NCBI GenBank assembly: GCA_004282745.1
Contig: SHMT01000010.1
Span: 62,001-126,000 of the forward strand
DNA from: Candidatus Scalindua sp. SCAELEC01
GTDB lineage: Bacteria > Planctomycetota > Brocadiia > Brocadiales > Scalinduaceae
Length of the DNA: 64,000 nt
Direction: 5' to 3'
The notes beneath the pieces are model-generated. The model worked only from the letters and a program-made list of their open reading frames with translations. It made no database searches and was not told the DNA's origin. The position numbers and the translations under genes are program-made. Below, in pieces: positions 12,218 through 63,156 of the stretch; position 1 is the first letter of the stretch; the number at the start of each line of letters is the position of its first letter.

Positions 12218-12287
12218 AATAAATAAATAGCTGTGATTACTTATTGACAAAATTTAAGGTCTCCGCTAGAATCACTTCCGTTATATA

Positions 12288-12432
12288 GTGCCTGAACGAA
12301 AACCCTGTGTTTGAATGAAAAGTGCCTAGGTACAAGGCGCGTAATAATTTCGCAACCGGAACGTACAATTGTACTTGAGGATTGCGAAATTATTGCAGCA
12401 ACGCAGTAGATGGGTAGTTTACGTTCAAACAC
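12288..12432 (+). repeat. Family A repeat, copy A2 (145 bp, flanked by TATATA direct repeats)
   Basis: It runs from GTGCCTGAACG to CGTTCAAACAC. The left arm's outer segment is duplicated (GAACGAAAACCCTGTG then GTTTGAATGAAAA). It is immediately flanked by TATATA on both sides (12282-12287 and 12433-12438), a 6-bp target-site duplication. It lies between ftsH and tRNA-Pro. Confidence 0.9.
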
Positions 12433-12517
12433 TATATAATAGATAGGTACTACCTATATTTTTACTCCTCACATTAGTGTGATTGCAATCAATTTCGTTA
12501 GTTCGAAATATAAGATC

Positions 12518-14090: not shown

Positions 14091-14295
14091 ACGTAAATGA
14101 GTATGGATGTGTTGTTTAGAGAGAAATAATTGAGCACTAGGGAAAAACAGGTGATGATTAAAGTAAACACTTCACCTTGTGCAACAATTTAGATTCGAGC
14201 AAAATTGATTTTATTTTCCTGCATAAGCGCTTAAAGGATAGGAGTTACAAACTTTCTTCTCCCACTGCCACATCTGGCATGTGAATTGTTAACTA

Positions 14296-14440
14296 GTGTC
14301 TGAACGAAAACCCTGTGTTTGAGTGAAAAGTGCCCAGGTACAAGGCGCGTAACAATTTCGTAACCGGAACGTACAATTGTACTTGAGGATTTCGAAATTG
14401 TTGCAGTAACGTAGTAGATGGGTAGTTTTCGTTCAAACAC
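14296..14440 (+). repeat. Family A repeat, copy A3 (145 bp, flanked by TAACTA direct repeats)
   Basis: It has the same plan as A2: GTGTCTGAACG at the left, CGTTCAAACAC at the right. It is bracketed by TAACTA at 14290-14295 and 14441-14446, a perfect 6-bp target-site duplication. Confidence 0.9.
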
Positions 14441-14470
14441 TAACTATACATCGTCCTGAAATGTTAACAG

Positions 14471-15807: not shown

Positions 15808-15872
15808 TATTTACTCCTTTAAATGTAATATCTTATCAAACAAGACAAAAATGTATCGAATGCGACAAGTAA

Positions 15873-16002
15873 GTGGTTGGACATAAACGACACAGATAGA
15901 ATTCCCAGAACAATTTCGAACTGAAACGTACGAGCACGTACATGCTTGAGAACTACAGAATCATAATAACAGCGGAGTGGATGGTCGCTTTCGTCCACCC
16001 AC
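15873..16002 (+). repeat. Family A repeat, copy A4 (diverged 130 bp variant)
   Basis: It starts GTGGTTGGAC and ends GTCCACCCAC. The internal arms are diverged from other copies but alignable (AATTTCGAACTGAAACGTACG; CTTGAGAACTACAGAATC). It is the same length as A1, in the same orientation, with no flanking duplication. Confidence 0.65.
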
Positions 16003-19929: not shown

Positions 19930-20265
19930 CTAACACCTTTCATTTTGCTTAGGAGTGAGCCAAAAAACTACAATCAACGTTTGATTCTAACAAATGTCAT
20001 TCTTCATAAGCAAGTGAAAAGTCGCTGACCGACAACCATTGGTGCTCGAATTGTTGGTTTTGTGGTGTAATTTCTCGCAAACCGTGTAAACATTAACTTC
20101 CGTACAGCTTACACATTATCTATCTACACACTTTTGTCACCATTTTCCTCAACTGTAGTCAGTCTCCAAACTTGCTACACCGTCTCTGAGGCTATCAGGG
20201 CAATAATGAGAAGAGCGATGAGTCATCTTAATGTCTTCGTGGTCAGTCAACTTTGCAATCTTGTC
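19930..20265. other. Gene-free interval upstream of the tRNA-binding protein
   Basis: I see no gene, RNA or strong repeat in this interval. It probably carries the promoter of the thiC operon on the minus strand, but no convincing -35/-10 pair is evident. Confidence 0.4.
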
Positions 20266-20441
20266 CCCATTGCAAAATGGTTTTAGGAATTTCTGGACCG
20301 GAGTTTACTTGAAATTTTGATTTTTCGATTGAACAAAACCAGAGGCTTAGTAATACTCAGTTGAGGATTTTGAGATTGAGAAAAGTCTAAATTTCATATG
20401 AAATCGGGTTCTGAAAACCTAAAACCAATTTGTGATGGGTA
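20266..20441 (+). repeat. Family C MITE-like element, copy C1 (176 bp)
   Basis: It is about 80-90% alike over its whole length to 22834-23012. The ends are imperfect terminal inverted repeats: CCCATTGCAAAATGGTTTTA at the left, TAAAACCAATTTGTGATGGG at the right. It has no coding capacity. Its right half overlaps the 3' end of the broken beta-helix gene and supplies an in-frame stop. Confidence 0.8.
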
Positions 20442-21249
20442 TACATCAACAAAGAACCTGAAACGGTCCTCCTTTTGAAGACCAATCTCACAGTCCGTTG
20501 TAAACGTCTCACCAGGAGATAATACCTGATCGGCACTAACATCTACCGCCAACGTCAAACCAACCCCACCCGGACGTCCATCAGCATTCAGCAGGACATT
20601 TCCGGCAGTGCCCCCCCGGTGAGTTCCTTCACTTGGAAGAATGGGAATCGAATCGGAGTAGAACTGCTATTGATGAACATCGCCGTAATGGTAAAGACGC
20701 TCACCGGTGCTCGACTACCAATCGGATCAATCGACGTGTCCACCTCTTCTTCCAACGAGACCAGTTCGTTCACGATGGGGTAAAACTCAAACGACCCAAT
20801 GTCACATAAAGGGAAAGGAGGCAAAAGGAGTCCCGAACCATTCACGGGTCGAATCCGACCGCGTTGGTCGGTGTTGAGGAAGTTTCCGTCTGGATCCAAA
20901 CAAACATCATCCCCTGCACCAATCACAGGGCTCCCAGCCAATTGGGCATGCGTATCGGTGGACCGCCGTTGTTCTGCAAAGGGCCGAGTAGAGGATCAGG
21001 GTTGTGTAAGTCATGAGGTTGTGCAAGGTTGCAAGTGCCATCGCTATCAAGGTTAAAGTCGAGAGAAATCAGGACGTTTCCTGGACCAGTAGACATACAA
21101 TCATCAGGGTTGCTAAAAATATTAGTGTTCCCACCTATAATGGTATTTTGCAGATCCACGGTACCACTAGGTGGGATAGGGAGACCCATAAATATCCCAC
21201 CACCTCTTTTTGATAGAATCTTAACCACTTGAGTTCCATAACACAGCAT
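20394..21249 (-). pseudogene. Remnant of a choice-of-anchor / parallel beta-helix secreted protein with two frameshifts
   Basis: Three frames join to give one protein. The first (21249-~20935) has LQNTIIGGN and GPLQNNGGPP. The second (~20941-20615) has AGSPVIGAGDD, LNTDQRGRIRPVNGSG and CDIGSFEF, the end of the 'choice-of-anchor Q' beta-helix family. The third (~20612-20394) has LAVDVSADQVLSPGETFTTD and ends at a stop inside repeat C1. The frame breaks fall near 20935 and at a C7 homopolymer (20611-20617). The N-terminus with its signal peptide is missing. Homopolymer sequencing error could explain one break but not the lost N-terminus. Confidence 0.75.
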
Positions 21250-22340: not shown

Positions 22341-22833
22341 AATAATCTCTCCTTTTTAAAAAAATATAATATTGAAAAATAAAATTCTATAACTCTTTCT
22401 GCTACTTAAAAAAAAACACTCTCCTTTCTATAATAAAACAGAAAATCCTTTTAGTAAAAAAGCCTTCACATTAAAAGCCTCTCGGCAGTTCTGAACATTC
22501 ATTAAAACCAACCTTTTAATAAAGCTTCAACAAACAAAAACAGGCAAACCATATATCATGTCCGAAATTATTTTTACCAAGATAACAAACACGGTTGTTA
22601 TTGTTTGTAATTGGTTTTTAACGGAGCTACTCTTATGCCAAACTATGCATTATTTTTGGGTACAAACGTAAGTACCCGTAGGTGCACAATATAAATTATT
22701 ATTTTTTAGTATTAGCGAAGTTTTGTTGCTTTCTGGTGTAAGTCAAAACTGGTGTTTTACTGGTGATATATTGGTTTACTGTTTATTTTCTCCAACTCTT
22801 AACCATCTATTAAAAACAAAATTAACGTTATTA
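22341..22833. other. AT-rich gene-free interval
   Basis: I see no gene in this very AT-rich stretch. It should contain the promoter for the secreted-protein pair on the minus strand, but no single -35/-10 pair stands out. Confidence 0.35.
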
Positions 22834-23012
22834 TACCCATTGCAAAATTATTTTAGGAATTTTTGGGCAGGAGTTTGTTTGAAATTTTGATTTTTCGATT
22901 AAACAAAACCAGAGGCTTAGTAATACTCAGTCGAGGATTTTGTGATTGAGAAAAGTCAAAAGTTCATGTGAAATCGGGTTCTGAAAACCGAAAAACAATT
23001 TGTGATGGATAT
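22834..23012 (+). repeat. Family C MITE-like element, copy C2
   Basis: A near-full-length match to C1 in the same orientation, beginning ATACCCATTGCAAAAT and ending ACAATTTGTGATGGATAT. The inverted ends again pair imperfectly. There is no open frame. A further 230 bp to 23270 shows nothing recognisable. Confidence 0.8.
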
Positions 23013-23270
23013 GGATGAGCAAGTGTAAAAATCGTTCGATTGAAACTATTTGAGAATGTATGATTCAGGGGAAGGATTGTATGAAACAGTAGTTACGTAG
23101 TCAACTCAAGTGGAATCAGTCAGAATCAGCAGGAAAACAATTAAATTGTAAGTCTCTTTATGCTAAAATGATTGCAACATTACAGACACGATATCAGGCA
23201 TTTATAAGTATGTAAAAAACCTAAAAAATAGAACTGTTGGTTCTATGGATTATTCATGTAGGATCAGGCA

Positions 23271-29359: not shown

Positions 29360-29467
29360 GAATTATATACCGATAATTTCAAAACTGTTGCCCCATATTG
29401 CTGCGCGTATGACTCTTCACGATTCCTGAATTTTTACCTACAGCAATGAGTACTTGAACAGTGTCCC

Positions 29468-29634
29468 TGTGGTTGAACCAAAACAGCCCAGGTACAAAGC
29501 GCGTAATAATTTTGTAACCGGAACGTGCGCGCACATGGGTGCCTGAGTACGTGAGGATTGCGGAATTATTACCGCAACGCCGTAGATGGGTAATTTTCGT
29601 TGCCGAAAAACGGCTAGAAAATTCGATCAAACAA
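29468..29634 (+). repeat. Family A repeat, copy A5
   Basis: TGTGGTTGAACCAAAACAGCCCAGGTACAAAGCGCG at the left (in two parts) and GCAACGCCGTAGATGGGTAA at the right. The last arm is interrupted: TTTTCGTT is followed by ~25 extra bases before TCAAACAAC. It lies just upstream of yhaN and just downstream of the MNT gene. Confidence 0.8.
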
Positions 29635-30427: not shown

Positions 30428-30576
30428 CGAAAACCCTGTGTTTGAACCAAAACTGCGCAGGTACAAGGCGCGTAATAATTCTGTAACCAGAACGTACGCG
30501 CACATGAGTGCCTGAGTACGTGAGGATTGCGGAATTATTACCGCAACGCCGTAGATAAGTAGTTTTCGTTCTACCG
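30428..30576 (+). repeat. Family A repeat, copy A6
   Basis: It starts CGAAAACCCTGTGTTTGAAC and ends AGTTTTCGTTCTACCG. It has the usual core (GGTACAAGGCGCG, GGATTGCGGAATTATT). The outermost left arm is missing. It lies immediately upstream of the HEPN gene. Confidence 0.8.
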
Positions 30577-32865: not shown

Positions 32866-32875
32866 CTGTCAGAAG

Positions 32876-33042
32876 TATACTCATTTCATAATGGTTTTCG
32901 GATAAAATCCGAGATAAAATTGAGCGAGTAAAGTCCTCGACCCCTTTTTTCCCGGGGATAACGGCCCGCCTGAACGACATGTCGGGCAGGCAACCAAGAT
33001 GTGGTTTCCAACAAAACCGAAAACCAAATCGGTTTTCGTATA
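32876..33042 (+). repeat. Family B palindromic repeat, copy B1 (long form with nested palindrome)
   Basis: It starts TATACTCATTTCATAATGG and ends AACCAAATCGGTTTTCGTATA. Inside are TTTTCGGATAAAATCCGA and a nested palindrome CCCGCCTGAACGACATGTCG then GGCAGG. It lies immediately upstream of the cyclase gene. Confidence 0.75.
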
Positions 33043-33164
33043 TATGCTTTTATGAATCTCATGAATTACAGGTAAATTTAGTAGTTAGCATTTCAAAATC
33101 TGATTATGGCAAAAGCACTATTATTCCATTGTAGAGTACAAGTTGTTATCCATCTGGAATTACC

Positions 33165-33822: not shown

Positions 33823-35031
33823 CTATTGTTTACCTTGCATAGCCAGTTTCAAATGAGCGAAGTTGCGTTCAATAGTATCAATATTTGGATGCCCGTTTGG
33901 GAATGTTCTTCGTAAAATATCAAGAGCATGCTTATACAAAGGCTCGGATTCTTCATATTTGCCCTGTTTCCTGTATAGGCAAGCCAGATTGTTCAGAGTC
34001 TCTGCGACAGAAGGATGATCTGAGCCAAGGGTTTTTTCTTTGATCTCCAGTGACCGTTTATACAAGGGCTCCACTTCTTCATATTTGCCCTGTTCCCTGT
34101 ATAGATTAGCCAGATTGTTTAGAGTAGTTGCAACAGAAGGATGGTCTAGGCCAAGGGCTTTTTCTTTGATCTCCAGTGACCGTTTATACAAGGGCTCCGC
34201 TACTTCATATTTGCCCATGTCATGGTAAAGCAAAGCCAAGTTATTTTGGATTTGTGCAAGTTCAACCGTTTCAGTTGTTTCCTGCTGGCGTAACTGAAGT
34301 AACTTCTCTAGCCATGGCTGAGCCTCTTTGTAATCCCCAAGCGTTTGCGCCATTGTGCCAGCCGCAAGCAGGTAATCAGGGTTGCCATTTTCCAACGCCA
34401 CTGCTCGGCTATACTTTTTCATCGCTTTGGCATAATCAATGCGCCCTTCTGCCAACTGTCCACTTTGATATGCTGCAAGCGCTACTACAACAGCACCTTC
34501 TTCATCAACTTCATCAAACAATTTCTCTGCTATCTTAGCATCCCCACTTTGTAGGTTTTTGCGTGCTTCTTTTATCTTTGATTTTGGTAGTGTTCCCTCA
34601 AGTTTTTCTAATGCCGTAACAGCCTTTTTTCGTCTCTTTGTTTCCTCCTCAAAGCTCTCTTGCAGGTTGTTTAATTTTTCACCAACTGCATTGAGTTCGA
34701 TTTCCAGTTTCTGTTGTTTTTCACACTCCTTATTTCTGATGGATTCTTGTAGTTCCTTGTGTATTCTTTCTCTCTCACGGTTTATTTTGACCTCATATTC
34801 TTCTAGCGTAATCCCTATGTAAGTAATTTTGTCACCACTTACAATATCGCCACTGCCTGCTGAATAATTTGCGTCACGCCCTGCCTTGATCTCTATTTTA
34901 TTCTCAGCAGTTTGTTTACTACCACGTGTTGCTAAATAACCTATGACAGCAACAACAAGTGGCACCACGATAGCGGCAATAATCCATTTTGTGTTTAATT
35001 TCTTCTTGTCTGTTTTGTTTGGAATATTCAT
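33823..35031 (-). CDS. Membrane-anchored coiled-coil TPR protein (kinesin-light-chain-type repeats)
   Basis: The 402-residue protein has an N-terminal TM anchor (WIIAAIVVPLVVAVIGYL, ~17-34), then GRDANYSAGSGDIVSGDKIT, a 'GDxVxGDKIT'-like turn motif seen in many signalling and conflict-system proteins. A coiled coil of ~90 residues follows, then TPRs. The last three TPRs are the 42-residue kinesin-light-chain type (LNNLANLYREQGKYEEVEPL, YKRSLEIKEKTLG..HPSVA). Adjacent repeats are nearly identical, suggesting recent duplication. Function is unknown; it lies next to a toxin-antitoxin module in the accessory island. Confidence 0.78.
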   Translation of the reverse strand: MNIPNKTDKKKLNTKWIIAAIVVPLVVAVIGYLATRGSKQTAENKIEIKAGRDANYSAGSGDIVSGDKITYIGITLEEYEVKINRERERIHKELQESIRNKECEKQQKLEIELNAVGEKLNNLQESFEEETKRRKKAVTALEKLEGTLPKSKIKEARKNLQSGDAKIAEKLFDEVDEEGAVVVALAAYQSGQLAEGRIDYAKAMKKYSRAVALENGNPDYLLAAGTMAQTLGDYKEAQPWLEKLLQLRQQETTETVELAQIQNNLALLYHDMGKYEVAEPLYKRSLEIKEKALGLDHPSVATTLNNLANLYREQGKYEEVEPLYKRSLEIKEKTLGSDHPSVAETLNNLACLYRKQGKYEESEPLYKHALDILRRTFPNGHPNIDTIERNFAHLKLAMQGKQ

Positions 35032-39526: not shown

Positions 39527-39577
39527 TTTTAATGAGAATAAAGAACTTTGAATTCTTAATAATTATAAAGTTACATA

Positions 39578-39703
39578 GTGGTTGAGTGAAAACTGCCCAG
39601 GTACAAGGCGCGTAAAAATTACGGAACCGGAGCGTACTCAAGTACGTGAGGATTACGGAATTTTTACAGCAACGCCGTAGATGGGTAGTTTCCACTCAAC
39701 CAC
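39578..39703 (+). repeat. Family A repeat, copy A7 (126 bp)
   Basis: Ends GTGGTTGAGTGAAAACTGCC and TTTCCACTCAACCAC. The left flank TACATA fits the TANNTA target form, but the right flank (CGGATA) does not match it. The last 8 bp overlap the 3' end of the yhaO-like gene and carry its stop codon. Confidence 0.85.
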
Positions 39704-43118: not shown

Positions 43119-43271
43119 GCGGTTGAATCAAAACTGCCCAGATACAAGCGCGTCAATTCCGGAACCGGAACGTACGTGCACATGGGTGCTGGAGTACGTG
43201 AGTGCTCAAGTATTTGAGAATTACGGGGCTTTTACAGCAACGCCGTAGATGGGTAGTCCTGATTCAACCGC
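43119..43271 (+). repeat. Family A repeat, copy A8 (153 bp)
   Basis: Ends GCGGTTGAATCAAAACTGCC and GTCCTGATTCAACCGC. The loop is longer than in other copies. It abuts the end of the DUF2132 gene (3 bp). Confidence 0.85.
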
Positions 43272-43274
43272 TCA

Positions 43275-43505
43275 CTACTCCTCTGCCTCCGTTATAAATC
43301 GCAAGTACAGCTCCTCAACTCTTTTTCTTGCCCAAGGAGTCCTTCTCAGAAATTTAAGACTGGACTTAATACTGGGATCGTGATTAAAACACCTGATATT
43401 GATCACGATTCCCATTTCATACCAGCCATAATGGTCAACTAACCGGGTAAGAATGTTTTCCAGAGTTATACCGTGAAGCGGATTATTGGGTTGTTGATCT
43501 TTCAT
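43275..43505 (-). CDS. DUF2132 / VF530-like protein
   Basis: The 76-residue protein reads [40 protein letters not shown] and [17 protein letters not shown]. This matches the VF530 family (DUF2132), small helical proteins suggested to bind nucleic acid. No experimental function is known to me. It is enclosed between repeats A8 and B2. Confidence 0.85.
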
Positions 43506-43506
43506 C

Positions 43507-43563
43507 TATACTAAAACCGATTTGGTTTTCGGTTTTGCTGAAAACCATTATGAAATGAGTATA
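43507..43563 (+). repeat. Family B repeat, copy B2 (short form, 57 bp)
   Basis: It starts TATACTAAAACCGATTTGG and ends AACCATTATGAAATGAGTATA. It is a simple palindrome made of the two B ends without a centre. It lies directly upstream of the DUF2132 start codon. Confidence 0.7.
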
Positions 43564-44422: not shown

Positions 44423-44609
44423 CTGTAAGTCGCCCGGTACTTGAACCTTAGAATAGAGGAATACGCCTCTATCGTAGTGAACAAAATAACTCAAAAGATC
44501 TCTATTCTATTCGGTAATTCCTACTATTTCAAAGGTTATATTCTGGTTGGTTAACAAATTATCTTTTTGTGGGTAAATTGAAATTGGAAACAACCGAGTT
44601 CCCTATTTA

Positions 44610-44754
44610 GTGTCTGAACGAAAACCCTGTGTTTGAATGAAAAGTGCCCAGGTACAAGGCGCGTAACAATATCGTAACCGGAACGTACAATTGTACTTGA
44701 GGATTTCGAAATTGTTGCAGCAACGTAGTAGATGGGTAGTTTTCGTTCAAACAC
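44610..44754 (+). repeat. Family A repeat, copy A9 (145 bp, flanked by TATTTA direct repeats)
   Basis: GTGTCTGAACG at the left, CGTTCAAACAC at the right. It is bracketed by TATTTA at 44604-44609 and 44755-44760, a perfect 6-bp target-site duplication. It is nearly identical to A3. Confidence 0.92.
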
Positions 44755-44760
44755 TATTTA

Positions 44761-50770: not shown

Positions 50771-51640
50771 TTACTTCAATACCTCTTCAACCGCCTCTCC
50801 AATATCAGCTGGATTGTCTACAACGGTAACATGAGCTTTACGCAAACAAGCTACTTTTTCCTTCACGGTACCCTTACCACCGGAAATAATAGCACCGGCA
50901 TGCCCCATCCTCTTGCCCGCAGGCGCGGTTAGCCCAGCAATAAAGCTTACGACAGGTTTCGACACTCTGTTTTTAATAAATTCCGCGGCCTCTTCTTCCG
51001 CACTTCCACCAATCTCGCCAATCAACACTATGGCTTTGGTATCATCGTCATCTTGAAAAAGGGTAAGTGCATCGACAAATGATGTTCCGATGACTGGATC
51101 ACCACCGATACCCAAACAGGTAGATTGTCCAATACCCCGCTGTGTCAACTGCCAGACAGCCTCATAAGTGAGAGTACCGCTCCGAGAGACAACTCCCACA
51201 GTACCAGGGGTATGTATATAGCCGGGCATAATGCCAATCTTCGATTGACCAGGCGTAATAATACCAGGGCAATTGGGCCCAATCAGGCGAGCCGGTTTCG
51301 TAGCAAGATAGGCTTTAACTCTCAACATGTCGATAGTTGGAATCCCTTCGGTAATACAGATGACCAATTCAATCCCAGCTTCAACAGCTTCTATAATAGC
51401 GTCAGCAGCAAAAGGGGCAGGCACATAAATAATAGAGGTATCACACCCTGTTATCTCCACCGCCCCCTTGACAGAATCAAAGACTGGTATATCAAAAATT
51501 TCGGTCCCACCTTTGCCTGGTGTTACACCGGCAACCATTCTGGTACCATACTCGAGCATGTGCTCAGTATGAAATTTTCCGGAAGCGCCGGTGATACCCT
51601 GACAAACAACTTTTGTTTCGCTATTTATGAGTATACTCAT
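50771..51640 (-). CDS. sucD: Succinyl-CoA synthetase alpha subunit
   Basis: It makes succinyl-CoA or the reverse, coupled to ADP/GDP. Motifs are [40 protein letters not shown] and the phosphohistidine in [17 protein letters not shown]. At 289 aa it is full length. Its start codon ATG and first codons (ATGAGTATACTC) are part of the end of repeat B3, and no Shine-Dalgarno sequence precedes it. It pairs with sucC upstream. Confidence 0.96.
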
Positions 51641-51749
51641 CTTATAATGGTTTTCGGATAAAATCCGAGAAAAAAAGGAGTGAGTATACCTTCACCAAGA
51701 TTTGGTTTTCATCAAAACCGAAAACCAAATCGGTTTTAGTATATACTCA
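51632..51749 (+). repeat. Family B repeat, copy B3, filling the sucC-sucD junction
   Basis: It starts TATACTCATCTTATAATGG and ends CGGTTTTAGTATATACTCA. The palindromic ends supply the sucD start codon at one side and the sucC stop codon (TGA of AGATGAGTATA on the minus strand) at the other. It carries AACCGAAAACCAAATCGGTT and TTCGGATAAAATCCGA hairpins. Confidence 0.8.
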
Positions 51750-52916
51750 TCTTGTATCATTTACCGCCTGAACTATTTTTTCCGCTGCATCCTTCATGCT
51801 CTCTGCAACAATCATATCAAGTCCTGAATTATCAAGGATAGTTTTCGCAATTTGAACATTCGTCCCTTCCAGTCTGACCACGAGCGGCACATGAATACCC
51901 ACTTTTTTTACCGCCTGTATAATACCCTGAGCAACGATATCACACTTCATGATACCACCAAAGATATTAACCAACACCCCTTTCACCTTTTGATCAACAA
52001 AAATCAATTCGAATGCCGTCGTCACCTTCTCTACAGGTGCGTCACCCCCAACATCCAGAAAATTAGCAGGCATTCCACCGTAAAATTTTATTATATCCAT
52101 TGTGGCCATTGCTAAACCGGCACCGTTCACTAAACAGCCAATGTTTCCATCAAGCCCAATATAACTCAAACCGGACGCTATTGCCTTTCCTTCATTAACG
52201 TCGCCCTCAGAAAAATCTCTCATTGCCAATAACTCTTTGTGTCGAAAAAGGGCATTATCATCAATATCCATTTTCACATCCAGTGCAACGATCTCTCCCT
52301 CTTGTGTTAACACGAGAGGATTTATCTCCAGAAGGGAGCAATCATTGCCAATGAAAGCCCTATAGAGGTTTGCGATTAGCTGGGAAGCCGCTATCATGAG
52401 TTTACCCGTCATACCCAATTTTTTAGCTATGTTACGTGCTTGGAAATCATACATACCCATAACGGGGTCTACACGTTCTTTCGCAATCTTTTCAGGTGAC
52501 TTCGAAGAGACCTCTTCTATTTCAACTCCCCCTTCTGTACTACAGATAATAACGGGTGCAGAGGAACTCCTGTCTATCGATATCGCCAAGTACAACTCTT
52601 TTTTTATCTCTACCGCATCTTCAATAAGTACCTTATTTACCTTTATCCCTTTACTCCCTGTCTGGGCCGTTACCAAGGTTAAGGCCAATATCTCAGATGC
52701 ATACCTTTTCACCTCTTCCAATGTCGTTGCTATTTTTACCCCACCGCCTTTTCCTCTCCCTCCAGCATGAACCTGCGCTTTTATAACACACTTCTTTCGA
52801 CCAATGTCCCCACACGATTCTCTAACGGTTTCCGCATCCGTTACAACAACCCCATGGGGAACTTTAATGTTGTATTTTCGTAGGATTTCCTTTGCCTGAT
52901 ATTCGTATAGTTTCAA
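51747..52916 (-). CDS. sucC: Succinyl-CoA synthetase beta subunit (ADP- or GDP-forming)
   Basis: The start is placed at a TTG (52916) giving MKLYEYQAKEILRKYNIKVP, the universal SucC start; AGGGG lies ~7 nt upstream. The frame continues into repeat B4, but that part is not SucC. Motifs are VIKAQVHAGGRGKGGGVK (ATP-grasp), LEINPLVLT and VNIFGGIMKCDIVAQGII. The 389 residues match the E. coli protein (388). It is the first gene of the sucCD-korDABC-gpmI series. Confidence 0.95.
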   Translation of the reverse strand: MKLYEYQAKEILRKYNIKVPHGVVVTDAETVRESCGDIGRKKCVIKAQVHAGGRGKGGGVKIATTLEEVKRYASEILALTLVTAQTGSKGIKVNKVLIEDAVEIKKELYLAISIDRSSSAPVIICSTEGGVEIEEVSSKSPEKIAKERVDPVMGMYDFQARNIAKKLGMTGKLMIAASQLIANLYRAFIGNDCSLLEINPLVLTQEGEIVALDVKMDIDDNALFRHKELLAMRDFSEGDVNEGKAIASGLSYIGLDGNIGCLVNGAGLAMATMDIIKFYGGMPANFLDVGGDAPVEKVTTAFELIFVDQKVKGVLVNIFGGIMKCDIVAQGIIQAVKKVGIHVPLVVRLEGTNVQIAKTILDNSGLDMIVAESMKDAAEKIVQAVNDTR

Positions 52917-52937
52917 TTGTACCCCTAAAAAAGAGAG

Positions 52938-53102
52938 TATACTAAAACCGATTTGATTTTCGGTTTTAATGGAAACCAAATCTTGATTGCCTGCCCGACA
53001 TGTCGTTCAGGCGGGCAGTTATCCCCGGACAAAAGACGCCGAGGACTTTACTCGCTCCTTTTTTTCTCGGATATTATCCGAAAACATGATGAGTTGAGTA
53101 TA
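52938..53102 (+). repeat. Family B repeat, copy B4 (long form, upstream of sucC)
   Basis: It starts TATACTAAAACCGATTTGA and ends AAAACATGATGAGTTGAGTATA (in parts). It contains the nested palindrome CCTGCCCGACATGTCGTTCA then GGCGGGC, as in B1, and the hairpin CTCGGATATTATCCGA. It is in the opposite orientation to B1. It lies where the promoter of the suc-kor operon would be expected. Confidence 0.75.
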
Positions 53103-56334: not shown

Positions 56335-56477
56335 AACATTTTTCTCCTTTAACCATTTTCCAATCTATAAGTACATACTTACCTTTATCCCTAACAACCT
56401 ACACCTAGCCGTGGACAGTAACATCTTACCTCCATTATCAGCGCAGCACGCATATCCATCTCCAGACCTCACCCAGA

Positions 56478-56589
56478 TATACTAAAATCGATTTGGTTTT
56501 CAGTTTTACCGGAAACCAAATCTTGGTGAAGGTATACTCGCTCAATTTTACTTCGGATTTTATCCGAAAACCATTATGAGATGAGTATA
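56478..56589 (+). repeat. Family B repeat, copy B5
   Basis: It starts TATACTAAAATCGATTTGG and ends AACCATTATGAGATGAGTATAC. It has the TTCGGATTTTATCCGAA hairpin and the internal GTATACTCGCTCAATTTTA spacer. It lies between rng and rplU. Confidence 0.75.
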
Positions 56590-56621
56590 CATCTTATTTC
56601 TTGCCTGCTCAAGAAAGGAAA

Positions 56622-62744: not shown

Positions 62745-62861
62745 GATTTTATAATGAACAATGACTCGATCTTTTACCCTCCTAGTTACGACCTCCCGTT
62801 AGCGCAGCGGGTAGAAGATTGAACCGATAAAACGAAAACTACCTTCTCTCCTAGGTACTTA

Positions 62862-63006
62862 GTGCGTGAACGAAAACCCAGTGTTTGAACCAAAACTGCC
62901 CAGGTACAAGGCGCGAAATAATTACGTAACCGGAGCGTACTCAAGTACGTGAGGATTACGTAATTGTTGCAGCAACGCCGTAGATGGGTAGTTTTCGTTC
63001 AAACAC
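62862..63006 (+). repeat. Family A repeat, copy A10 (145 bp, flanked by TACTTA direct repeats)
   Basis: GTGCGTGAACG at the left, CGTTCAAACAC at the right. It is bracketed by TACTTA at 62856-62861 and 63007-63012, a perfect 6-bp duplication. It lies between divergent comF and the TPR lipoprotein gene. Confidence 0.92.
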
Positions 63007-63156
63007 TACTTATAAGAAGGTAAAGACCAATACCTTGGCTATTCTTTCGAAAGGACAGTTCCCTATCAGCTTTTCTTGACGCCTTATAACGCCGTAAGCG
63101 TCGCCTTTAAGCGCAGCTTTAAAACCAAAATTAACCCCATTTTCTACACAATTACC

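Follow-up and report, generated by a model that had tools for sequence, protein, structure and literature searches.

The 145-bp repeats found in the window, i.e., the whole 64,000-nucleotide stretch of Candidatus Scalindua sp. SCAELEC01 contig SHMT01000010.1 analyzed here, are very probably a MITE that is mobilized in trans by an ISNCY-class transposase of the NF033593 family. We assign the repeat to an ISNCY-class insertion sequence (IS) because its ends, its TANNTA target rule and the transposase clade agree. According to the mechanism that we propose, an NF033593 (ISNCY class) DDE transposase encoded elsewhere would bind both 16-bp ends (GTGYYTGAACGAAAAC) of the non-coding MITE and would insert it at TANNTA through cuts staggered by 6 bp, so that the TANNTA is duplicated. 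Sequence comparison suggests that an NF033593 transposase is also the actual mover of the MITE in this lineage.

The window includes four intact, extragenic copies of exactly 145 bp with GTG...CAC ends, all of them on the plus strand. Each is bracketed by a duplicated hexamer, read from the sequence and assigned to neither strand: copy 1 (12288–12432) by TATATA at 12282–12287 and 12433–12438, copy 2 (14296–14440) by TAACTA at 14290–14295 and 14441–14446, copy 3 (44610–44754) by TATTTA at 44604–44609 and 44755–44760, and copy 4 (62862–63006), an older one matching copy 1 at 125/145 positions, by TACTTA at 62856–62861 and 63007–63012. The first-pass annotation had placed these four copies and their hexamers identically, to the base. 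It had also counted ten copies in all, and a profile of genomic copies matched the same number of loci, the other six being older or degraded and likewise on the plus strand. They lie at about 1335–1469 (without intact duplication), 15869–16000 (very degraded), 29451–29601, 30428–30573 (92% like 29465–29601 over 137 nt when the two are compared), 39577–39703 (a hairpin-only copy, GTGGTTGA...CAACCAC) and 43119–43268.

The 145 bp consist of a 19-bp end copy followed by a 126-bp hairpin. In copy 1, the left end (12288–12306, plus strand; GTGCCTGAACGAAAACCCT, the terminal inverted repeat plus CCT) is directly repeated at 12307, where a near-perfect palindrome begins (12307–12432, plus strand; DNA fold z = -4.96). 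The description of the whole element as palindromic thus holds for the inner 126 bp and not for the first 19 bp, which duplicate the end in direct orientation. Terminal inverted repeats are present at the two ends of the MITE (GTGYCTGAACGAAAAC / GTGTTTGAACGAAAAC). The palindrome also stands alone, without the 19-bp prefix, as a 126-bp element at loci L055 and L068 and, in a same-genus genome, at L045; in L069 and L074 the prefix lies on the opposite side of it. No ORF of at least 150 aa overlaps the intact window copies. The earlier view that the element is devoid of coding capacity and is mobilized in trans is borne out. An Rfam scan of the window returned a single tRNA and nothing else.

Other repeats were also observed in the window. 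Another MITE-like repeat (TATACT...TTTTAGTATA), unrelated to the 145-bp one, occurs at 32871–33051, 51630–51753, 52928–53085, 56477–56594 and 43503–43554; at locus L032 it is inserted in a copy of the 145-bp MITE, apparently with a duplication of TA in the manner of IS630-type elements. An intergenic 192-nt direct repeat (89%; 20261–20452 and 22831–23022) is unrelated to the MITE, and a tandem 126-nt repeat (33917–34168) lies inside a TPR-protein gene (33823–35031, minus strand).

The 16-bp end of the MITE and its TANNTA rule are identical in full-length IS (1.86–1.90 kb) of NCBIfam NF033593 (transpos_ISNCY_1, DDE transposase), which supersedes the statement that neither the element nor its target rule matches a family that can be named. 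IS of this family, which we take to be probably the ISDol1 group of ISfinder, measure about 1.7–1.9 kb and encode a transposase of ~490 aa. The first-pass annotation had proposed searching for a full-length element with the same ends around a transposase gene, and such elements are present in other genomes, with none intact in the source assembly of the window (G000; 4.59 Mb, draft, 104 contigs). In a Bacteroidetes MAG (L159), the element delimited by the two ends is 1886 bp long and encodes a 491-aa transposase that matches NF033593 with E=1.3e-148 and Pfam DDE_Tnp_1 with E=1.7e-6. Complete IS were located by an NF033593 search in relatives of the window genome: the complete genome G026, which belongs to the same order, carries three perfect 1883-bp copies whose ends are both exactly GTGTCTGAACGAAAAC and whose duplications are TAAGTA, TATTTA and TAAGTA. 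The ends of the MITE match those of four IS (L253, L254, L286 and L287) at 16/16 positions, and each of the 13 full-length IS compared has TANNTA at its two flanks, the two hexamers being identical in 8 of them. The terminal ~16 bp are all that MITE and IS have in common, so none of the IS seen would yield the MITE by simple internal deletion.

The type of end tracks the transposase clade. Six transposases group in one clade (support 100/99), and the IS of all six carry the GTG..GAACG end; the other clade comprises six from the window genome's own family and a sister family. The ends of this sister clade, read in three IS (L257, L262 and L289), are GTTTCTGTACGGAAAT and also lie at TANNTA. Taking into account the homology and the invariant acidic residues D162, D384 and E435 (numbering of L253), which are compatible with a DDE triad, the transposase probably acts by DDE chemistry.

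We considered whether a different, unrelated transposase that recognizes similar ends, such as the product of a single-copy domesticated gene, moves the MITE. What speaks for such a mover is that the draft G000 contains no transposase of the matching GTG..GAACG clade although many MITE copies are near-identical: 16 of the 51 full-length copies match the consensus exactly, so the amplification was recent. Against it stand the 16/16 end and the 6-bp TANNTA of NF033593 IS, in the same order as well as in other phyla, and the correspondence between end type and transposase clade; we judge it improbable. The lack of an intact IS is compatible with mobilization by an NF033593 transposase, since a MITE can outlive its IS. 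As none is intact in G000, the cognate IS was presumably either lost after the burst or is missing from the draft. G109 has many ends at ~70–90 bp from contig ends, as expected where such repeats break assemblies.

The sole NF033593 match in G000 sits at the end of contig 1; it is a truncated gene that belongs to the other clade, and upstream of it lie TAGTTA and a GTTTTTGTACGGAAAT end. Of the 19 genomes searched for homologues of the L159 transposase, 6 contain them. A search of G000 with Pfam DDE_Tnp_1, a model on which NF033593-type transposases score weakly, gave no match. None of the G000 ends with non-MITE interiors flanks a transposase; upon inspection, they turned out to be gene-start remnants or copies that were truncated or interrupted by a nested second MITE. 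What looked like long end pairs in C23, G104:C247 and G106:C249 was discarded as separate neighboring elements.

The target rule holds across the genome. Exact matches to TANNTA plus end (TANNTAGTGYYTGAACGAAAA) number 318 in G000 (158 forward and 160 reverse), versus 0 for a reversed control pattern; the window has 7, and dinucleotide shuffles of it 0.00. For the duplication count, 30 G000 loci were picked by sequence only, their flanks being disregarded. Identical TANNTA hexamers stand on both sides in 27 of them and differ by one base in 2 more, while the last pairs TATCTA with TAGATA. We estimate that ~8% of copies would match by chance if TANNTA were fixed in the element with a free NN. 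Tabulating these hexamers over the genomic copies was the refutation test set in advance by the first-pass annotation; besides matching within copies, they are not invariant. Among 63 G000 copies, which are those that pass a TANNTA filter with perfect duplications, 11 different hexamers occur, with TATTTA, TAAATA and TAATTA dominating, and the bases outside the duplicated hexamer hold almost no information. The flanking hexamer is target DNA and not a part of the element.

Several individual copies deserve mention, positions in G000 being given as contig and coordinate. The near-consensus copy L024 (C101:42106-42250) has TATCTA and TAGATA flanks, a pattern that could result from recombination of one copy with another. 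A subfamily with right arm GTGTTTGAACGAAAACTCCCAAG occurs in five places (L059, C18:30856; L073, C54:37825; C72:7299; C96:79955; C101:91486); the arm continues CTTGCATACACTTGGAAGGCA in L059 and L073, the latter being 172 bp long with a TAAATA duplication. At L081 (C32:34685), a truncated copy, made of the prefix and the start of the palindrome, opens a 1172-codon reading frame, so that a host gene may owe its start region to MITE sequence. Remnants of 28–30 bp with the hexamer on both sides, which may be hairpin deletions or excision footprints, were seen at L095 (C31:54389), L106 (C88:81774), L149 and L180; examples are TAACTA-GTGTCTGAACGAAAACCCTGTGTTTGGA-TAACTA and, in Desulfobacula, TATCTA-GTGTCTGAACGAAAACCTTGTTCAGGCAC-TATCTA.

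Empty sites provide evidence of movement. Upon in silico removal of the element and one hexamer, a paralogous region on contig 23 aligns without gaps over 154 bp at 83% identity. Likewise, continuity is restored minus the element and one hexamer where an older repeat copy serves as the empty site (L029 versus L034), and in a Calditrichaceae genome the empty site carries a single TAATTA (L326 versus L178). Copy 1 is absent from the orthologous ftsH-tRNA-Pro interval of the same-genus genome G001, the bases adjacent to the site being too diverged there to show the single hexamer. Since filled and empty sites differ by exactly the element plus 6 bp, the repeat has spread by transposition with a 6-bp TANNTA target duplication, as the first-pass annotation had proposed.

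The strong hairpin, the extragenic position of the intact window copies and the high copy number would also suit REP/BIME-like palindromes spread by an HUH (Y1, RAYT) transposase or by recombination, with TANNTA as part of the repeat. HUH transposition, however, leaves no duplication, whereas the sites described above gain the element plus exactly 6 bp, and the NN varies between copies but agrees within each copy; this explanation, which the first-pass annotation had also argued against, is refuted and we give it practically no weight. The same negligible weight goes to an IS630/Tc1-mariner-type MITE with a TA target and a mere preference for the extra bases, which the TA at both edges of the duplication and the TA-type MITE nested in L032 might suggest, but which is refuted by a 6-bp duplicated unit with variable NN matching within copies and by same-end full-length IS that encode NF033593 and not IS630 transposases.

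GTDB genomes were scanned for TANNTAGTGNNTGAACSAAAAC. At least 107 stretches carry it, versus roughly 14 expected at random by our estimate; several copies are present in each of the 14 host genomes re-examined, and 0 in controls. The majority of ends delimit elements of less than 400 bp that follow the same target rule, a partner being found for 69 of 116 ends. Non-coding elements of ~125–255 bp with the same ends and TANNTA, and mostly with unrelated interiors, are spread over at least six phylum-level groups, complete ones with matching duplications having been read in Desulfobacterota, Calditrichota, KSB1, a Deferribacteres MAG, Pseudomonadota (Nitrosomonas, Parabeggiatoa) and Planctomycetota. 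NF033593 transposases appear to mobilize small elements of this sort in a wide range of unrelated bacteria. The interiors of elements with shared ends form 18 clusters, one of which unites the window MITE with elements of Desulfobacula/Desulfobacteraceae. As identity to these Desulfobacterota elements reaches 81% over the whole length, prefix included, the window MITE has crossed phyla. G000 for its part is probably a planctomycetotal genome: outside the genus, its Obg is most similar to that of a named Planctomycetota MAG (60%) and of the same-order G026 (57%), clear full-length Obg matches from other phyla reaching 43–48%. Two matches were obtained in viral contigs, one being a complete MITE; in plasmids, the element itself was unmatched and a 30-nt end query stayed at chance level. 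It is conceivable, if somewhat short of probable, that a single transposase clade maintains a cross-phylum guild of MITEs with unrelated interiors and a common 16-bp end plus TANNTA, which travel from phylum to phylum with visiting IS and are, in most hosts, more numerous than the autonomous element.

The lengths of elements from other phyla (L120–L226) cluster near 141–145 bp in several families with different interiors. Quantization of lengths by the 10.5-bp helical turn, striking in a first sample, was not retained: corrected for families, p was 0.03–0.16 at 10.5 bp and, over all periods, 0.07–0.20, which is not significant.

MITEs and NF033593 transposases are both already known kinds, and ISNCY stands in ISfinder for "not characterized yet" (PMC10132070). 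In the open literature searched, the MITE and IS end sequences had no match, and we found no report of MITEs of the ISNCY/NF033593 class or of the TANNTA rule. The present analysis assigns a high-copy bacterial repeat to this named class, which gains a concrete end sequence and a target rule (TANNTA, 6 bp). It also provides a 22-base search key that retrieves related elements in at least six phylum-level groups. With one transposase and one substrate, the question of how MITEs cross phyla can be put to a direct test.

Bacterial MITEs of the Correia and Nezha types resemble the 145-bp MITE in being short, non-coding, hairpin-forming, high-copy and moved in trans. Their duplication is TA and their ends are different, whereas the 145-bp MITE duplicates a 6-bp TANNTA. 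REP/BIME sequences with RAYT are, like it, extragenic palindromes in hundreds of copies, but lack the target duplication that it shows as 6 bp. The hupL and dsrA MITEs of Thiomargarita nelsonii are high-copy hairpins whose parental IS the authors did not find (PMC4853749); by description they are set apart by direct repeats of 10 bp combined with inverted repeats of 19 bp, or by TATAG ends (PMC4853749). The IS1202 family, formerly in ISNCY and listed under it in ISfinder, targets dif sites with duplications of 3–5 or >15 bp and has a TnsB-like transposase, unlike the TANNTA of the MITE (PMC10132070). The NF033593 IS, for their part, differ in having a ~490-aa transposase gene where the MITE is 145 bp of non-coding DNA, and agree with it, through their ends alone, in the terminal repeat GTGYCTGAACGAAAAC, the TANNTA flanks and the 6-bp duplication.
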